Positions 10,096 to 59,500 of a DNA stretch of 64,000 nucleotides are shown here, one piece after another. The first letter of the stretch is position 1. Each line of letters opens with the position of its first letter. The notes under the pieces were generated by a model that did not search any database, was not told the origin of the DNA, and worked only from the letters and a program-made list of their open reading frames with translations. A program made the translations under genes and the position numbers. Location of the stretch: assembly GCF_900066015.1 (NCBI RefSeq), contig NZ_LN890655.1, positions 3,388,726 to 3,452,725 of the forward strand, given 5' to 3'. This DNA comes from Candidatus Promineifilum breve. Its GTDB lineage: Bacteria > Chloroflexota > Anaerolineae > Promineifilales > Promineifilaceae.

Positions 10096-10116
10096 CGCTA
10101 TTTCTCCTTATTCATC

Positions 10117-10206
10117 AATTAGGAATTACGAATTAGGAATTACGAATTAAGAGTCTGGAATCAGGCTGGGCAGCCATTCCTAATTCATAATTCCTAATTC
10201 CTAATT
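10117..10206. repeat. AT-rich inverted heptamer array in the gcv leader
   Basis: Five 7-nt units AATTAGG/AATTACG/AATTAAG (from 10117) face an inverted set built of AATTCCT/AATTCAT (10176-10206). It lies between the riboswitch terminator and gcvH and could form a stem of about 30 bp with a 25-nt loop in the mRNA leader. Confidence 0.75.
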
Positions 10207-10260
10207 AAAAAAGGACGCCGGGCAAGGTCGCCCGCGCACGGGACGACATTGCCGGCGTCC
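10207..10260 (-). terminator. Riboswitch-controlled intrinsic terminator
   Basis: On the minus strand GGACGCCGGCAATG.. pairs with ..TTGCCCGGCGTCC, then TTTTTT. The GGACGCC arm begins within the GACAGAGGA end of the second glycine aptamer, so ligand binding can compete with hairpin formation. This is the usual expression platform of an ON switch for gcv genes. Confidence 0.85.
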
Positions 10261-50608: not shown

Positions 50609-51979
50609 GGTCTGTCCTAAATTGTGTGTAAACACCATTTGGTGATGGCCAGGCCATCATAGCTCAAACCGTCCTTCAAACCGAATGGCCAGTTGGTTGA
50701 GGATCTTGGCCCAATCGCGGATGGGGGCTGTCCAGCCACGGGTGACTCGTTGCGTGGCCAGGTACAGCAGCTTACGGGCCGCCTCGGGGGTGGGGAAGGC
50801 GGCCTTGGTCTTCATTACCTTGCGCAACTGGCGATGGTAACTCTCCACGCTGTTGGTGGTGTAGATGATGCGCCTAATCTCAGCCGGATAGTCGAAGAAG
50901 GTCGAGACCTCCGGCCAGTTGGTCTGCCAGGAACGAATGGCCATGGGGTACTTTGTCCCCCAGCGCTGGCCTAGCTGCTCCAGGTTCAACTGGGCCTCGT
51001 CCCGTGTGGCCGCGCGATAGACGCGCTTGAGGTCGGCGACGAACGCCTTGTGGTCGGTCCAGGAGACGTATTTCAGGCTGCTGCGAATCTGGTGGATGAC
51101 GCAGCGCTGCACCTGGGTCTGCGGGAAAACGGCCCGGATGGCCTCGCTGAAACCGTTCAGCCCATCGATACAGGCCAGGAAGATGTCGGCTACGCCCCGG
51201 TTTTGCAGGTCGGTCAGGACGCTCAGCCAGAAGTTGGCCCCTTCGCCGCCGTCGCCCAGCCAATGCCCCAGAATGTCCCGGTGGCCCTCCATATCCACGC
51301 CCAGAACGTTGTAGACAGCCGTGTTGGCCACGCGGCCCTCCCGCCGCAGCTTGATATGGATGGCATCCAGGTAGACGATGGGGTAAATGCGCGCCAACGG
51401 CCGGCTCTGCCACGCCTCCACCAGCGGCCACACCTTCTCGGTGATGGTGCTGATGGTCGTCGCCGAGATGTCTACCCCATACAGCTCGGCCAGCGTCCCG
51501 GCGATGTCGCGGGTCGACAGCCCGCGGGCGTACATGGCCAGCACCTTCTCCTCCAATTCGTTGGTGTTGCCGGCATATTTGGCCAACACCTGCGGCTCGA
51601 ACGCGCCGTTGCGGTCGCGTGGTACCTGGATGCTCGTCTGGCCGGTCGACGTGCGCACCTTCTTGGTATAATGCCCGTTGCGGTTGTTGCCGGAGTTACG
51701 GCCGGCGGCTTCATACGGCTCGTAGCCCAGGTGTTCGCTCAGTTCGCCCTCCAGCATCTGTTCCAGCGTCGAGGCGAAGAGCCGGGCAAAGACCCCTTCC
51801 TTGCCGAAAAAATCGTCCATCGACTGCACCTTGCCCAGTTCGGCCTGCACTGTCTCCGCCGATGGCATATACTCCTGCGGTGATTGGCTTTTCTTCTGCT
51901 TTGTCATCGTGTAACCTCCGACCGTCGCAATGGCTATACTGTAGTTGATTTCTGGTTACACACAATTGCGGACACTACC
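50609..51979 (-). mobile_element. IS256-family insertion sequence
   Basis: 1371 bp. Inverted ends: GGTCTGTCCTAAATTGTGTG on the left and, in reverse complement, GGTAGTGTCCGCAATTGTGT on the right. A 9-bp target duplication CACCCGCTG lies at 50600-50608 and 51980-51988. One intact IS256-type transposase. The target is the loop of a hairpin repeat, not a gene. Confidence 0.88.
50657..51907 (-). CDS. IS256-family transposase
   Basis: 416 residues, uninterrupted. Mutator/IS256 pattern: LASTLEQMLEGELSEHLGYEPYE at the N-terminus, then DDE residues in IVYLDAIHIKLRREG, FLACIDGLNGFSEAI and TTNSVESYHRQLRKVMKTKAAFP. The WP-rich segment VCxHQIR is seen as CVIHQIRSSLKYVSW. Likely functional. Confidence 0.95.
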   Translation of the reverse strand: MTKQKKSQSPQEYMPSAETVQAELGKVQSMDDFFGKEGVFARLFASTLEQMLEGELSEHLGYEPYEAAGRNSGNNRNGHYTKKVRTSTGQTSIQVPRDRNGAFEPQVLAKYAGNTNELEEKVLAMYARGLSTRDIAGTLAELYGVDISATTISTITEKVWPLVEAWQSRPLARIYPIVYLDAIHIKLRREGRVANTAVYNVLGVDMEGHRDILGHWLGDGGEGANFWLSVLTDLQNRGVADIFLACIDGLNGFSEAIRAVFPQTQVQRCVIHQIRSSLKYVSWTDHKAFVADLKRVYRAATRDEAQLNLEQLGQRWGTKYPMAIRSWQTNWPEVSTFFDYPAEIRRIIYTTNSVESYHRQLRKVMKTKAAFPTPEAARKLLYLATQRVTRGWTAPIRDWAKILNQLAIRFEGRFEL

Positions 51980-52051: not shown

Positions 52052-53488
52052 TCAACCCACCGGATTTCTGAACGCGCCACCCGCTACCCGCCCCCCGCTA
52101 CCCGCCCCCCGCCACTTCTCATAATCCTCCGGCCGGTCGAGATCGTGCAGGACGGCATCCGTATCCACCTCAACCGTCAGCAGGTCATCGGGGTGGCGTT
52201 GCAGCAGGTGGCGCGGCGCGGCTTCCGGGGGCAGGGTCAGTAGTTCGGCGAAATGACGCCGGTCGATGAGCACCGGATTGCCGCGTTGGCCGTGGTGGCT
52301 GGGGGCGACGAAGCCCAAAGGGGAGGCGGCATAGGCGGTCAGCAGTGCATCGAAGACGACCGGCTCCACCATTGGCTGGTCGCCCAGAATGACGAGGATC
52401 GCTTCGATGGTCGGCGGTAGGTGGCGAACGGCCGCCTGCACCGACGCCAGCATCCCTTTCGCATAGTCTTTATTCCACAAGATAGACGCTACACCCGGCA
52501 CGCCGGCGGCCCTTGTCACCGCCTCGCCCTCATGCCCGACGACGACGATCACCTGCGTCACACCCGACGCCGTCGCATTGGCGACGGTCTGCCCCAGCAC
52601 GGTCGTATCGCCCCAGGGCAGGAGCAGCTTGTTGCGCCCCATCCGCCGCGATTCGCCCGCGGCCAGAACGACGGCCGCCACCCGCCGCCGCACTTCCCGC
52701 ACCGACGTCGCGCCCTGCAGCGCGCCGATGACCACCCGATCGATGCGCTGCTCATCGAGCATCAACGCCGCCGCCTCTCGCGCCGCCGCCAGCCGTTCGC
52801 TCGTCTCCACTTTATTGAGGAAGGGGACGATCCGCGCCCCGGCCGGCGCATCCTTCAATCCGCCCCGCGTATCGACCAGCACCCGCGCCAGCCCGGCGGC
52901 CGTCAGCCGCCCCTCGCGCAAGGATGGAAGACCACCCATTCCTGAGCGGCCCTCTTCATTCCTAATTCGTAATTCGTAATTCGTAATTTCTCTTATTCTT
53001 TCTGGCCGGTGGGCAACGTCATCGAGCAATCCTTCCAGCGCATCGAGACCGGCCACGGGCACGAGCAGCGTTGTGCCCAATGGCATGACCGGCTCGTGGT
53101 CGGCCGGGGCTTTGATCGGCCGCATCCGCGCGCCGTCGGCCTCGACCAGCACGAAATCGACATCGGGCCGGGCCAGCAGTTGAGCGGGCAGGTCGGGCGG
53201 CACACCAAGGGCCTTCTCCCCCTCCACCCGGCCGACGACCAGGCAGCGGCCGTGTTGATCCAGCGCGGCGGCCAGCGGCGACAGGTCAGCGGCGGAGACC
53301 ACGGCTGGGGCGCGGTTCATCTGCGCGGCGAAGATGCGTGTGGTGGTGGTGATGACGACGCGGCCGGGCAACTCGGCCGCCAGAGCAAATAGCAGGCTCG
53401 TCTTGCCCCCGCCGCCGACGAAAGCCACCAGTTCCGGCCCGTCGCCGATGCCCAGCGCCGCGGCCAACGACCATCGCCCGGCGGTCAT
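52052..53488 (-). CDS. YqeC-MocA fusion for molybdenum hydroxylase maturation
   Basis: 478 residues. Residues about 1-245 match YqeC (selenium-dependent molybdenum hydroxylase accessory): AFVGGGGKTSLLFALAAEL (P-loop), VVITTTTRIF, VDFVLVEADGARMRPIKAP, and RIVPFLNKVE. Residues about 270-465 match the MocA/MobA-like cytidylyltransferase: AAVVLAAGESRRMGRNKLLLPWG and IEAILVILGDQPMV. Two oddities: a heptamer array encodes 'ITNYELRIRNE' inside the YqeC part (52958-52985), and another encodes the C-terminal tail after DLDRPEDYEKWRG (52075-52116). Last gene of a leftward operon YqeB - two hydrolases - this gene. Confidence 0.9.
   Translation of the reverse strand: MTAGRWSLAAALGIGDGPELVAFVGGGGKTSLLFALAAELPGRVVITTTTRIFAAQMNRAPAVVSAADLSPLAAALDQHGRCLVVGRVEGEKALGVPPDLPAQLLARPDVDFVLVEADGARMRPIKAPADHEPVMPLGTTLLVPVAGLDALEGLLDDVAHRPERIREITNYELRIRNEEGRSGMGGLPSLREGRLTAAGLARVLVDTRGGLKDAPAGARIVPFLNKVETSERLAAAREAAALMLDEQRIDRVVIGALQGATSVREVRRRVAAVVLAAGESRRMGRNKLLLPWGDTTVLGQTVANATASGVTQVIVVVGHEGEAVTRAAGVPGVASILWNKDYAKGMLASVQAAVRHLPPTIEAILVILGDQPMVEPVVFDALLTAYAASPLGFVAPSHHGQRGNPVLIDRRHFAELLTLPPEAAPRHLLQRHPDDLLTVEVDTDAVLHDLDRPEDYEKWRGAGSGGRVAGGAFRNPVG
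52075..52116. repeat. CGCTACC/CGCCCCC heptamer array in the 3' end of YqeC-MocA
   Basis: Six 7-nt units (CGCCACC, CGCTACC, CGCCCCC, CGCTACC, CGCCCCC, CGCCACT) lie inside the last 20 codons of the YqeC-MocA gene, giving a glycine-rich tail absent from the family. Confidence 0.85.
52958..52985. repeat. ATTCGTA heptamer array inside the YqeC coding region
   Basis: ATTCCTA followed by three ATTCGTA units, read leftward as TACGAAT, in frame within YqeC. The same word occurs in the intergenic array before gcvH (AATTACG). Confidence 0.88.
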
Positions 53489-53528: not shown

Positions 53529-53553
53529 ATTCGTCATTCGTCATTCGTCATTC
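53529..53553. repeat. ATTCGTC heptamer array supplying a stop codon
   Basis: Three ATTCGTC units and a degenerate fourth lie between YqeC-MocA and the upstream hydrolase gene. The TGA of the hydrolase (53548-53550 on the minus strand) is inside the array. Confidence 0.8.
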
Positions 53554-54483
53554 CCCAGTCGGCCGCCCAAAGTCCGGAGCAAACTCCGCCAGGAACGCAT
53601 CGACCAATTGCCGGTAGCCCGCCGGGTCAACCTGGATGTCGCGAGCGTGGGGCGCGCCCCAGTCGTTCAGGTGCAGCACGGTCCGGGCCGGATCGCTTTG
53701 GGCGAAGATGTCCTCCGAGTGGGTCGAGAAGGTGTATTCATCCGTCAGCGAATGGATAAGCAGGACCGGCATTTGCGCCTCGGCGACGCTCCGTTCGGGG
53801 GCCACGGCGTCGACGTCAAAGTCGGCGCGCCACTCGGCAATCTGAAACGCGCCGGACAACAGCAGAGGGGCCAGGCCGGGGAACAGTTCATTGGCCTGAT
53901 AACTGACGATCTCGCGCAGCTCGCTATAGGCCGCATCGGCGGCGACGAAGGCCAGTTCGGGCGCGAGGGGAGCCATTTGCAGCGCCGTGGCCGCGCCATA
54001 GGACACGCCGAAGACGCCGATCTGCGACCGTTCCAGCCCGGCGCGGTCGGCGAACCAGTCCAGGGCGACGATAGCGTCCTGTTTCTCATAGAAGCCGTAG
54101 GTGTGGAAGGCGGGCGAACTATCGCCGTGGCCGCGATGGTCATAGGCCAGGATGTCGCAGCCGCGCTCCCAGAACATGGGCGCCCAGTCGAGGACGTGAT
54201 AGCGTGTGCCCTGGTAGCCGTGGAGAAACAGCAGGCCGCACTGGCCGTCGGCCGGGTTGTCGAAGAACCAGCCCGATAGGGTCACGTCGCCGGCGTCGAT
54301 GGTGATGGCCTCCGGCTGCGGCAGGCCGAAGTCGGCCGGGTTGTCGCCCTCGGCCGCGGCCTGGGCTAGATTCTCCGTGTCCGAGGCGATGAGAATGGAT
54401 GAGAAATACCACGTGGCGGCCACGTAGGCGATGACGAGGACGATAGCGATGATGAGGATAATGCTTAAGCCACGACGATTCAT
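53548..54483 (-). CDS. Membrane-anchored alpha/beta hydrolase 1
   Basis: 311 residues. An N-terminal hydrophobic segment (LSIILIIAIVLVIAYVAATWYFSSIL) is a signal anchor. The hydrolase domain has LLFLHGYQGTRYHV, DILAYDHRGHGDSSP, the nucleophile serine in IGVFGVSYGAATAL, the acid in PVLLIHSLTDEYTF, and the histidine in WGAPHARD. About half identical by eye to the next gene upstream, so they are tandem duplicates. Substrate unknown; position between YqeB and YqeC-MocA suggests co-regulation with the molybdenum hydroxylase. Confidence 0.87.
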   Translation of the reverse strand: MNRRGLSIILIIAIVLVIAYVAATWYFSSILIASDTENLAQAAAEGDNPADFGLPQPEAITIDAGDVTLSGWFFDNPADGQCGLLFLHGYQGTRYHVLDWAPMFWERGCDILAYDHRGHGDSSPAFHTYGFYEKQDAIVALDWFADRAGLERSQIGVFGVSYGAATALQMAPLAPELAFVAADAAYSELREIVSYQANELFPGLAPLLLSGAFQIAEWRADFDVDAVAPERSVAEAQMPVLLIHSLTDEYTFSTHSEDIFAQSDPARTVLHLNDWGAPHARDIQVDPAGYRQLVDAFLAEFAPDFGRPTGE

Positions 54484-54548: not shown

Positions 54549-55490
54549 CTATTGCACCGGCGGCAAGCCAAACGCCGGCGCGAATTCAGCCATGAAGGTG
54601 TCGAAGAGCTGTTTATAGGCGGCAAAATCGGTGCCGATGTCGGCGGCGTGGGACGATCCCCACTCGTTGACGTGCAACACCGTCCGCCTCTGGTCACTGT
54701 TGGCGAAGATCGCTTCGGAGTGGGTATAGGGCGTGAAGTCGTCGGTGCGCGAGTGGATGAGCAGGACGGGCATTTGTGCGTCGGCGATGGCCGTCTCCGG
54801 TGACACGGCCGCCGCGTCCATCCCGGTACGCATTTGGGCGATAGCCAGCACGCCGGGCACGAGGAGCCGGGCCAGGAAGCGGCCGACCTGGGCCTGGCCC
54901 CGCGCGCCGACGATGCCGGCCACGCTGCGATAGGACGAGTCGGCCAGAATGAATGGCGCGTCGGGGATCTTTGGTGCCAGTTGCAGCGCAATGGCCGCGC
55001 CATAGGACACGCCGCCCACGCCGATTTGCCCTTCGGCCAGCCCGGCGCGCTCCTGGAACCAGCGGAACGCCGCCAGCGCGTCCTCCTTCTCAAAATAGCC
55101 GTAGGTGAAAAAACCCGGCGAGCTATCGCCGTGGCCGCGATGGTCATAGGCCAGAATGTCGCAGCCGCGCTCCCAAAACAGGGGCGCCCAGTAGAGAGCC
55201 TGGTAGCGCGAGCCGACGAAGCCATGCATGAACATGACGCCGCACTGGCCCTCGGCCGGGTTGTCGAAATACCAGCCCGACAGCGTGACGTCACCCGACT
55301 GAATCGTGATGTTTTCCGGGGGCGGCAAACCGAAATCGGCCGGGTCGCCGGTGGCGGCGCGTTCCTCGGCCAGCGATGGGGCGGGCGCGGCGATCATCAA
55401 CCCGGCGAACAGCCAGCTTACAACCGCGTAAACCAGCAGGAGCGCCAGAAGGATGCTGCCAAAAACGATCCATAAACTTCTTCGTTTCAT
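54549..55490 (-). CDS. Membrane-anchored alpha/beta hydrolase 2
   Basis: 313 residues from ATG 55490, which overlaps the TGA of YqeB (translational coupling). Signal anchor at residues 5-30, then VMFMHGFVGSRYQALYW, DILAYDHRGHGDSSP, nucleophile in IGVGGVSYGAAIAL, acid in PVLLIHSRTDDFTP and histidine in WGSSHAADI. Tandem paralogue of the gene at 53548-54483. The family includes esterases and peptidases; the activity here is not known. Confidence 0.87.
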   Translation of the reverse strand: MKRRSLWIVFGSILLALLLVYAVVSWLFAGLMIAAPAPSLAEERAATGDPADFGLPPPENITIQSGDVTLSGWYFDNPAEGQCGVMFMHGFVGSRYQALYWAPLFWERGCDILAYDHRGHGDSSPGFFTYGYFEKEDALAAFRWFQERAGLAEGQIGVGGVSYGAAIALQLAPKIPDAPFILADSSYRSVAGIVGARGQAQVGRFLARLLVPGVLAIAQMRTGMDAAAVSPETAIADAQMPVLLIHSRTDDFTPYTHSEAIFANSDQRRTVLHVNEWGSSHAADIGTDFAAYKQLFDTFMAEFAPAFGLPPVQ

Positions 55491-56353
55491 CCAATGCGCT
55501 CCTTTGTTTTGGTAAGGTAGGTGAGCACAGCCTCCACCACGCCGCCGCCGATGGCCAGGGCTTTGTCGGAGATGGTGAAACAAGCGGCCACGTCGCCGCG
55601 CGGGTCGACGTCGCCGATTTTGATCCCCTGGGGCACGGCCGTCCCCGGCGCGATGAGGCCGCGCACCACGCCAGCGAACGGTGCGGCGATGACCTGCCCG
55701 GCCACGTCGCCGATGATCTCCCCTTCGCGCACGCGGTCGCCAATCTCCTTAGTCCAGGCGGCGACACCGGCCACGGGCGCGCGCAGCACGCGCTCGGCCG
55801 CCCGTCCGCCGACCAGGCCGGGTGTGCCGGTATTGGCTTCGGCTGGGCCGTCCCAGATAACCCGGCCGAGGCGGTGGCCGCGGTTGGTCTCGATGACGGC
55901 GTGGCAATCGACGCCGGCGGTGAAGCCCGGCCCCAGGGCGATGACGAGAGGGGCCTGACCGATGGCGGTATCGATGTTGCGTTTCGCCATTCTGGCATCG
56001 ACGACGGACGACGGACGACGGACGACGGCGTGCGGTTCGTGGTCTGTGGTTGGTTGTCTGTCGTCTATAGTTAATCCGGCCGGAACTTCAACCGACGCAA
56101 GCACCGGGATTACGCCGGTCTGGGCGAGTTGTAGTGCTTCCTCGGCGCTAGTCACACGGACGGCGCGCAGGTCTTCGATGGTTATCGCGCCTTCCAGGAC
56201 GGCCGTCGCCAATGCCACCCGCCGCCGGACGACCAACGGGTGGGGCAGTTCGGTGACGATGAGCGGAAAGCCGGCATGATGTAGCCGATAGGCGACGCCG
56301 GTCGCCAGGTCGCCGCCGCCGCGTAAGAGAATGAGGTGGTCGCCGAAGAGCAT
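55487..56353 (-). CDS. yqeB: YqeB-family molybdenum hydroxylase accessory protein
   Basis: 288 residues. Opens with ILLRGGGDLATGVAYRLHHAGFPLIVTELPHPLVVRRRVALATAVLEG, and later PLVIALGPGFTAGVDCHAVIETNRGHRLGRVIWDGPAEANTGTPG, both diagnostic of the EF2563/YqeB selenium-dependent molybdenum hydroxylase maturation family. Between 'VPAGLTI' and 'VVDARMAKRN' lies an insert (DDRQPTTDHEPHAVVRRPSS) encoded by heptamer repeats at 55999-56067, in frame. First gene of the leftward operon; the first hydrolase gene overlaps its stop. Confidence 0.9.
   Translation of the reverse strand: MLFGDHLILLRGGGDLATGVAYRLHHAGFPLIVTELPHPLVVRRRVALATAVLEGAITIEDLRAVRVTSAEEALQLAQTGVIPVLASVEVPAGLTIDDRQPTTDHEPHAVVRRPSSVVDARMAKRNIDTAIGQAPLVIALGPGFTAGVDCHAVIETNRGHRLGRVIWDGPAEANTGTPGLVGGRAAERVLRAPVAGVAAWTKEIGDRVREGEIIGDVAGQVIAAPFAGVVRGLIAPGTAVPQGIKIGDVDPRGDVAACFTISDKALAIGGGVVEAVLTYLTKTKERIG
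55999..56067. repeat. GACGACG/GACCACA heptamer arrays inside yqeB
   Basis: Plus strand: GACGACG units repeated four times, followed by a second set that reads leftward as GACGACA, GACAACC, AACCACA, GACCACG, AACCGCA. The second set uses the same word as the array at 9614-9697. About 70 bp, inside the coding sequence, in frame. Confidence 0.85.
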
Positions 56354-56566: not shown

Positions 56567-59500
56567 ATGGACCCAACACTTCCAAAAAGGCGTAGTTTCC
56601 TGTTATTACTCTTAACCCTCCTTATCGTTTCCTTTTTTCTTAACCTAGTAAGCGTGCCGAGCGCCATAGCCTGTTATTCATGGCAACTCGGCGCACGCGT
56701 CGGCCTCAGAGGGAGTGCAGAAATTAGGCATGGCCCGGGTTTTGAGTATGTCGTGCATACCATTGTGCCAAATGACAACTGGCAGGTTGACATAATAGAC
56801 GGCCCCCGCTATGCCAACGGGCAGGAGTGGTGGGATATTAGCCGGAAAAATCTCGATGGTGGTGGCACAGGATGGGTGTATTTTTCGCAAGCAGCCTACG
56901 ACATTTGTGACCCTAACCCGCCCGGCAACGTGTATGTCCAATCGGACATTGAACTTATTCCTGATCCGTACAACGGCTGGCCGCCACACGAGGGAGAAAA
57001 GTTAATTGGCCGGTTCACCCTAGGAAATAACGGCGGACAAAACGTAACGTTGGAGGGGTACGGTATCCGCCTGCGGCGAGATGGCTGGGATTACTGGGAT
57101 TTCCTGAATACCAACCAGGTTACATTAGGCCCGGGGCAGACCGTACGCTTTGACCAGAACAACGAGCGACCGCTCGTGTCAGGGTATTACCGGGCCGAGA
57201 TCACCTGGAAAGTAGCTGGTCAAGATTGGAAGGTGACGTCGGCCAGAGAGTTCAACGTTACCTCACCCCCCCCCGGCAATGTCTACATTAATTCAGACAT
57301 CGAGCTTGTACCTGATCCATATAACGGCTGGCCGCCACATGAAGGCGAAAAACTGATTGGCCGTTTCACTTTGGGCAATAGTGGAGGGCAGAATATCTCC
57401 CTGGAAGGATACGGCATCCGTTTGCGGCGCGACGGTTGGGATTATTGGGATTTCCTGAATACCAACGCGATCACGCTCGGCCCAGGGCAGACCGTGCGTT
57501 TTGATCAGAATAACGAGCGACCGCTCGTGCCCGGACACTACCGAGCCGAGATCACCTGGAAAGTAGCCGGTCAAGATTGGCAAGTGGCGTCGGCCAGGGA
57601 GTTCGATGTCATCCAAACACCTGATCCGGGCAACATCTACGTTCAATCGGATATCGAGCTTCTACCAGACCCCAATAACGGTTGGCCGCCGCACGAGAGG
57701 GAGAAATTAATTGGTCGGTTCACTCTGGGCAACAACGGTGGGCAAGCCGTAACCTTGGAAGGATACGGCATCCGCTTGCGGCGAGATGGATGGGATTATT
57801 GGGATTTCCTGAACAGTAATCCGTCAACACTGGGGCCCGGGCAAACGGTTCGTTTCGATCAAAATAATGAACGACCGCTGGTTCCGGGGCATTATCGGGC
57901 CGAGATAACCTGGAAGGTGACCGGTCAAGATTGGCAGGTTGTATCCCCGAGAGAATTCGACGTTACATCGACCCCTAACCAACCTGGCAACATTTATATC
58001 CATTCCGACATCGAGCTTGTGCCAGATCCAAACAACGGTTGGCCGCCGGATGAGGGGGAAAAGTTGATCGGCCGGTTCACACTTGGCAACAACGGGGGGG
58101 AGAATGTTGTTCTAGAAGGGTATGGTATTCGCCTCCGTCGTGACGGCTGGGAATACTGGGACTTCCTCAATACTAACCCTGTCACACTGGGACCGGGGCA
58201 AACCACACATTTTGATCAAAACAATGAGCGGCCCCTGATATCGGGGCATTATCGCGCCGAGATTACCTGGAAGGTGGCCGGTCAGGATTGGAAGGTTACG
58301 TCGGCAAGGGAGTTTCAAATAGGCGATCCTGTCATTCCTCCTGGCCCGCAAGACGGAACCCTTGTTATTGTTGGGCCGTTAGAAATTAATCCCAATAGTT
58401 TAGATGCTTATGAAACTGCAACCGGTCGATTCACCGTTCGCAATGAGAGCAGTTCGACTGTCGGTCTCTCCAGGTTGGGTATCGGCGGCCGTGGCCCACT
58501 TGGCAATGACATACATGATTTCCCATGGCATTGGTTTATAACCCTGTTGCCCGGCGAAGAATATACCTATCAGGATACTCGTTCATTCACCACATCTGGC
58601 AGTTATTTTTTCTTTCCAGCATACCAATCGGAAAACGGAGAATGGCGTGAAATCTATTCTTCGAATGGAGCGCGGAGCGTTGCCAGCGCCGTCGTAAACA
58701 GCCCTGCGACAGGATCAACCGGTTGGAGCTTAGCTGTTAACTACATGGACGACTCGAACGAGGTAATAGACGTAAGTGGAGGCAACGTAGAACAACTGGC
58801 GTCAGGCAAATTTGTCTTCAAGGATTTCACTCTCGCCAATCGTTCGTTGCACTGCCGGTTTACTCAAATAATCGTAAACGGAACCCCCTTACAGTTTCGA
58901 TCTCCAGGTGGTTGGAGTCAGGATTGGGTAATCGGATTACCGGGAGACAGGGCAACCATTAACACAGGCTTCACTATTCCGGCCAGTCAGTTTGAAATTA
59001 GGAACAGTGTTTTGGCAAAGGATGTTCCGAGTCAGGCTGCTCTTACGCTATGCAATCTTGCTGCTACCGTCCTGGTCGTTTTCAATGGCGACATAAGCTT
59101 GGCGGAAAATGGTGAGCTTACGTCGGTCGACACACTTTGGGGAGGAGTTACTGATGCAATTTTTGATGGAGTTCTGAGCAATGGCGATCCTAACGTGGCG
59201 GTCGAATTAGCCATTATTTATGATGACATTATTCGCGGCGAAGGAAGGGACGCATTTATCAAGATCTTAACCTTTGCCGCTCGTCATCCCGACACTGTGT
59301 CCAAGCTGATATTCAATCTTTTCGGGGTTGCTGTTAAGGAAGGCATCGAGTTTCTCGACGTCATTGGCAAGATTCTAGAATCATGGTTTGCCATAGACGC
59401 CGGCGCCAGATTGATCGAATCTAATTTAACCGAACCGAGTTTGGGCATCGCGGTTGTTTATGCTCAACAGACGCCTTCAAACTTAAAAACGTACACCCAT

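Follow-up and report, generated by a model that had tools for sequence, protein, structure and literature searches.

Heptamer arrays of different words in one loop of the YqeC-MocA fusion of Candidatus Promineifilum breve and its relatives

Introduction

How does a tandem array of seven-nucleotide units come to lie, in frame, in the middle of a gene of molybdenum-cofactor maturation? The question is raised by a 64,000-nucleotide stretch of the Candidatus Promineifilum breve genome (positions 3,388,726 to 3,452,725 of contig NZ_LN890655.1, assembly GCF_900066015.1; hereafter the window, whose coordinates are used unless another locus is named), in which an open reading frame (ORF) for a fusion of YqeC and a MocA-like nucleotidyltransferase carries a heptamer array within its YqeC half. 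Here we show that the array consists of five units with a special end unit, that the same loop is occupied by different heptamers across genera and that many further genes are affected, all of which goes beyond a preliminary description of the locus. The insert is probably one copy of a dispersed population of heptamer arrays that invades tolerant loops, of which only the in-frame, stop-free copies survive.

The array within the YqeC-MocA gene

The features of the window are collected in Table 1. Profile matches to PF19842 and TIGR03172 (YqeC) and to TIGR03310 and PF12804 (MocA-like nucleotidyltransferase) confirm that the array lies in the YqeC part of a YqeC-MocA fusion, and the frame remains open for 478 codons with no stop across the array; in both respects the preliminary description was correct. 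It had also placed four units at 52958-52985, and the forward-strand letters there are indeed ATTCCTA followed by three copies of ATTCGTA. Tandem Repeats Finder (TRF) calls positions 52958-52988, with period 7, 4.4 copies and 95% matches. Once phased with the genome-wide family, however, the full element comprises five units and 35 nt, not 28 nt, and terminates in the special end unit.

The array encodes residues I168-E179, ITNYELRIRNEE, in a variable loop after HRPE in the YqeC half. PF19842 matches the protein as far as residue 163, and the best stretch for TIGR03172 reaches position 153 of the 209 in that profile (protein residue 172), stopping at the insert. A second array of the same ORF forms a C-terminal tail of the GGCGGGTAGC type, past the end of the MocA domain at approximately residue 459. 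The predicted structure, from a 3-sequence alignment, says nothing about the loop because the predicted local distance difference test score (pLDDT) is below 50 over much of the YqeC half, the insert included; among PDB sequences, no YqeC structure was found and only MocA-like and related nucleotidyltransferases were matched. Directly downstream of the gene lies an IS256-family transposase (50657-51907).

Table 1. Coordinates of the host genes and heptamer arrays in the window
Feature	Position	Strand	Basis or remark
YqeC-loop array; five heptamers, AATTACG (three times), AATTAGG and AATGAAG in minus-strand reading	52954..52988	-	codes ITNYELRIRNEE
Host ORF, YqeC-MocA fusion, 478 aa	52052..53488	-	ORF list and profile matches
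Second heptamer array of the same ORF, C-terminal tail	52075..52115	-	TRF; beyond MocA domain
Neighbouring hydrolase ORF (53548-54483): AATGACG array at its 3' end	53529..53553	-	TGA stop of the ORF falls in the array
YqeB (TIGR03309), loop with in-frame heptamer arrays coding DDRQPTTDHEPHAVVRRPSSVVD	55487..56353	-	profile and ORF list
YqeB-internal heptamer arrays, CCGTCGT and GACCACA types	56000..56061	-	TRF
Left arm of intergenic AATTACG/AATTAGG inverted pair upstream of gcvH	10117..10149	+	TRF
Right arm of the same pair	10176..10206	-	TRF

The YqeC loop in related genomes

We examined 52 genomes of the family, mostly draft metagenome-assembled genomes (MAGs), of which 38 gave a usable YqeC region (the alignment of G056 ends short of the loop). 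After HRPE, genera free of arrays have a short and unrelated loop such as VCALTGLSPHDP, and none of the array-free homologues among these 38 genomes shares the residues ITNYELRI, whose presence without heptamers would have contradicted an insertion. The suggestion that the array entered a tolerant loop is thereby supported, the more so as the copies of two congeners have decayed and other genera carry other heptamer words there.

Within the genus, five of the six congeners examined keep AATTACG-type units in the loop, intact or decayed: five-unit arrays lie at the same codon in G004, G005 and G007, the five units of G006 are degenerate, and the copy in G003 is decayed and shortened. In G004, G005 and G007, 11 of the 12 internal units are words dominant in the arrays of C. 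P. breve, and the differences change amino acids. Elsewhere in the family the loop holds AATTGTC/AATTGTG (G019 and G047, genera g13 and g6) or CRGTAAT or CGGTNNT (G016, G051, G021, G058 and G059; genera g10, g15 and g4), and in G053 (L155, genus g35) about six CGGTATT-type units are followed, in frame, by about five unrelated CAATCGT units. The arrays of all these genera start at about the same YqeC codon. In a codon-shuffle test, 7 was the best period in the loop of 12 genomes from seven genera (P = 0.001 for G058, 0.0015 for G021 and, for the other ten, 0.0005, the floor of the test; values uncorrected, with many sequences tested). An assembly artefact is unlikely, given that the genome is in 3 contigs and that the orthologous codon bears arrays in independent MAGs as well. 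Three of the YqeC-MocA matches, L012 (G006), L016 (G021) and L147 (G052), contain one internal stop codon each, which may reflect either a MAG error or a pseudogene.

The word found in the loop tends to be one that is abundant in the same genome. Densities of AATTACG, AATTGTC and CAGTAAT, measured as matches that overlap within arrays and are not array counts, were higher in genomes whose YqeC loop holds the same word than in other array-bearing genomes (one-sided Mann-Whitney P of 0.004, 0.05 and 0.03, respectively). Sampling the phylum more widely, we found AATTACG to be frequent in no family but this one and, at a weaker level, a second family of the same class.

Such a distribution might also be reached from a single ancestral array, present in the loop before the family split, if conversion from the arrays active in each genome then replaced its word lineage by lineage (concerted turnover at a fixed site). 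This would fit the approximate start codon common to all array-bearing genera, the grouping of G019 (AATTGTC) in one supported clade with G057-G059 (CRGTAAT), and the behaviour of YqeB, which is likewise a molybdenum-cofactor gene of this gene run and whose words vary even among congeners (CTCGTCA in G003, G004 and G006, GACCACA in G005 and C. P. breve, GACCGCC in G007). Yet many genera have a normal short loop with no trace of an array, so that an ancestral array would need many clean losses, and the words lack the homology that could seed conversion. Furthermore, a tree built without the loop columns requires at least nine changes of word state, although it is poorly resolved, with 21 of 34 inner branches open. 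We therefore regard a single ancestral array as unlikely.

Heptamer arrays across the genome

The insert belongs to a large population of repeats. With up to two mismatches, ATTCGTAATTCGTA has 12 matches in the window against 0.08 expected, and its complement (the AATTACG phase, two units) is matched 692 times genome-wide (5.03 Mb), a reversed control 8 times. In a 1.59 Mb sample of the genome, tandem repeats have a period of 7 more often than any other (114 exact runs, compared with none in a simulation, the latter being one Markov-5 run of half the sample size); shuffles and controls rule out a chance origin. The sample contains 194 period-7 arrays of several word families, among them AATTACG/AATTAGG/AATGACG, CCGCCAC/TCGCCAC and GACCACA/GACCACTG. 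By a home-made gene caller, which makes the gene counts approximate, 132 arrays are intergenic and 45 lie inside about 23 predicted genes, and per kb arrays are about 25-fold rarer in coding than in intergenic DNA. Divergent gaps are avoided, holding 7 of the 130 intergenic arrays with assigned flanks, when 170 of 908 gaps are divergent.

The arrays are constructed in a regular manner. Unit number has its mode at 4-5 in AATTACG, at 4 in AGACCAC and, leaving aside two-unit matches, at 4 in CCGCCAC; in G045, from another genus with GATTACG and AATTATG words, arrays are mostly of four units too. In the 1.59 Mb sample, AATGAAG is the last unit in all 17 of its occurrences; AATTCAG is last in all six. 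Pairs of AATTACG arrays within 120 bp are always convergent (10/10) and CCGCCAC pairs always divergent (14/14). Of the AATTACG arrays, 20/37 in intergenic DNA are paired, against 0/10 inside genes, and intergenic pairs fold strongly as RNA. One such pair includes the array reported ahead of gcvH (a gene named from its translation, not from a profile match), which is present as described and has an inverted partner; the RNA of 10105-10215 folds at -35.5 kcal/mol (z -5.55). The single arm in yqeC shows no such fold (z +1.1).

Could ordinary replication slippage have grown a chance 7-mer in place, as a local microsatellite without dispersal? Polymerase slippage has been invoked for the period-7 excess of bacteria (see the discussion in PMC4692102), and array lengths do vary. 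However, slippage alone does not predict a mode of unit number, a special end unit or a fixed pair orientation: rather than declining from 2, AATTACG unit counts have their maximum at 4-5. Moreover, unrelated sites within a genome share the same words, and other genomes use other words. An origin by local slippage is hence very improbable.

Arrays in other genes

Predicted genes bearing arrays include those for DnaE, KsgA, a Mur ligase, a class A penicillin-binding protein (PBP), a P-type ATPase, a tyrosine phosphatase and glycosyltransferases. Where Pfam matches are present, most arrays fall outside the match or at its edge; the exceptions, inside a match, belong to the P-type ATPase and to two membrane proteins. 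The ten AATT-family arrays found inside genes are all oriented so that no stop arises, AATTACG being sense and AATGACG antisense; an open frame demands this, and we read it as survivorship.

The pattern seen in YqeC is repeated in YqeB and in the linker of DnaE, and partly in KsgA. The core replication enzyme DnaE (L052:9153-13331) has an in-frame array in a linker that holds AATTACG in C. P. breve, AATGACG types in G006 and G004, other words in G007, G040 and G047, and two arrays in G011. KsgA (L122:4183-5064), a core enzyme of rRNA methylation, carries an in-frame GACCACA array in its linker, and the linkers of some relatives apparently contain other short repeats of 8 or 9 nt, as judged by eye.

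Origin of the insert

These observations can be brought together if the insert is, as we think likely, one copy of a dispersed heptamer-array population. A member of this family would consist of about four units of AATTACG, AATTAGG or AATGACG plus an end unit, AATGAAG or AATTCAG. Such arrays would enter many sites and, in coding sequence, be kept only where orientation, frame and the tolerance of the protein allow; intergenic copies are often convergent hairpin pairs, those in genes mostly single arms. One such tolerant site would be the YqeC loop after HRPE. In the genus of C. P. breve, one AATTACG-type insertion was probably inherited, decaying in places, and other genera probably acquired arrays, or had theirs replaced by arrays, of the word active in their own genome. 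Related bacteria with different heptamers in the same loop indicate that short dispersed repeats seem to rewrite tolerant parts of ordinary proteins time and again.

Several points weigh against this account. We infer the insertion itself from protein alignments. No transposase or polymerase has been linked to the spread of the arrays: counts of RAYT transposases (Y1_Tnp), which are nearly ubiquitous in the family, show no significant correlation across the 52 genomes (rho 0.22-0.25, P 0.08-0.12), and in G003, with 74 matches, no RAYT was found. On these grounds RAYT as a driver, in the manner of a REPIN-RAYT system, was rejected. Finally, in four congeners intact orthologous arrays are 77-87% identical as against 71-76% for the rest of the gene, which could mean constraint.

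Constraint would be expected of a functional insert, whether an adaptive linker or a regulatory, phase-variable switch; gain or loss of a unit would switch off the MocA half by frameshift since seven is not a multiple of three. Against a function stand the constant five units in four congeneric species (G000, G004, G005 and G007) and the five degenerate units of G006, the decay and shortening of the G003 copy, the occurrence of arrays in housekeeping genes such as dnaE and ksgA, and the many genera that do without. We see little prospect for a functional insert. Most likely, the peptide has no function in molybdenum-cofactor maturation and is neutral.

It is tempting to speculate further that each array is a discrete element, some 36 bp long (four units and an end unit, forming one hairpin arm), which a putative machinery copies to new sites; the preference for sites would be conserved and the word replaced between genomes, so that loops and linkers of the core enzymes DnaE, YqeC, YqeB and KsgA would repeatedly be rewritten with genome-specific heptapeptides. 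This stronger proposal is tentative, and we would sooner doubt than adopt it.

Relation to known repeats

The arrays display the features of dispersed bacterial heptamer repeats: many arrays, mainly intergenic placement, depletion from divergent gaps, a preference for four units and inverted pairs. The closest parallels are GGGAATC of Xanthomonas and GGGGA(C/T)T of Nostoc, which are likewise dispersed, prefer four units, form convergent inverted pairs and are rare between divergent genes (PMC4692102). In Xanthomonas the preference for four units was tied by the authors to G-quadruplex formation (PMC4692102). The AATTACG, AATTAGG and AATGACG words contain at most GG and have none of the G tracts that such heptamers carry in each unit; AATTACG arrays nevertheless peak at 4-5 units, and that explanation cannot apply to them. 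Our data thus uncouple the four-unit preference from the G-quadruplex. Furthermore, intragenic copies in the Xanthomonas and Nostoc study amount to 7-11%, and no recurrent in-frame occupation of a loop is described there (PMC4692102).

The TAACTGA repeats of Beggiatoaceae, Cyanobacteria and Bacteroidetes (MacGregor 2015, PMC4679880) also comprise 2-6 units, and their reverse copies are read through in ORFs as LSVISYQ; reverse-complementing and rotating TAACTGA gives the CAGTTAT unit found in YqeC of G016 and G059. Most ORF copies of TAACTGA, however, are close to a protein end or belong to hypothetical proteins, and the arrays adjoin start codons (PMC4679880), whereas the arrays described here are within conserved enzymes, at sites that genera with unlike words have in common. 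In cyanobacteria (Calothrix), heptanucleotide repeats similarly include several dispersed words per genome, by the account given in PMC4692102. Another member of the Chloroflexi, Chloroflexus aurantiacus, has heptamer tandem repeats, (GATAGRA)n, of another word, for which the portion of the source available to us describes no insertion into proteins (PMC6749651).

Rickettsia palindromic elements (RPE) are small dispersed repeats found both between genes and in frame within them (PMC1950309). They are palindromes (25-102 bp in the spacer described; PMC1950309), unlike the heptamer arrays, which in genes are mostly single arms; identity with RPE was rejected, as intragenic AATTACG arrays are unpaired and the single arm lacks an RNA fold. 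In the open-access literature we found no report of one loop being recurrently filled, in frame, by different heptamer words. The occupation of one loop by different repeat words in related genera suggests that new peptide sequence can arise in core enzymes without gene duplication, and the end unit and fixed pair orientation offer concrete handles on the spread of bacterial heptamer repeats in general.

Further repeats

Several intergenic CCGCCAC hairpins, e.g. at C1:2755600-2755667 and 3229812-3229872 of the genome, are flanked by CTTTGCGCCTTTGCGTTAAA-like sequence, which suggests a larger composite element. The window also contains, at 56921-58314, about 3.9 tandem copies of a repeat of approximately 351 bp (75% match).
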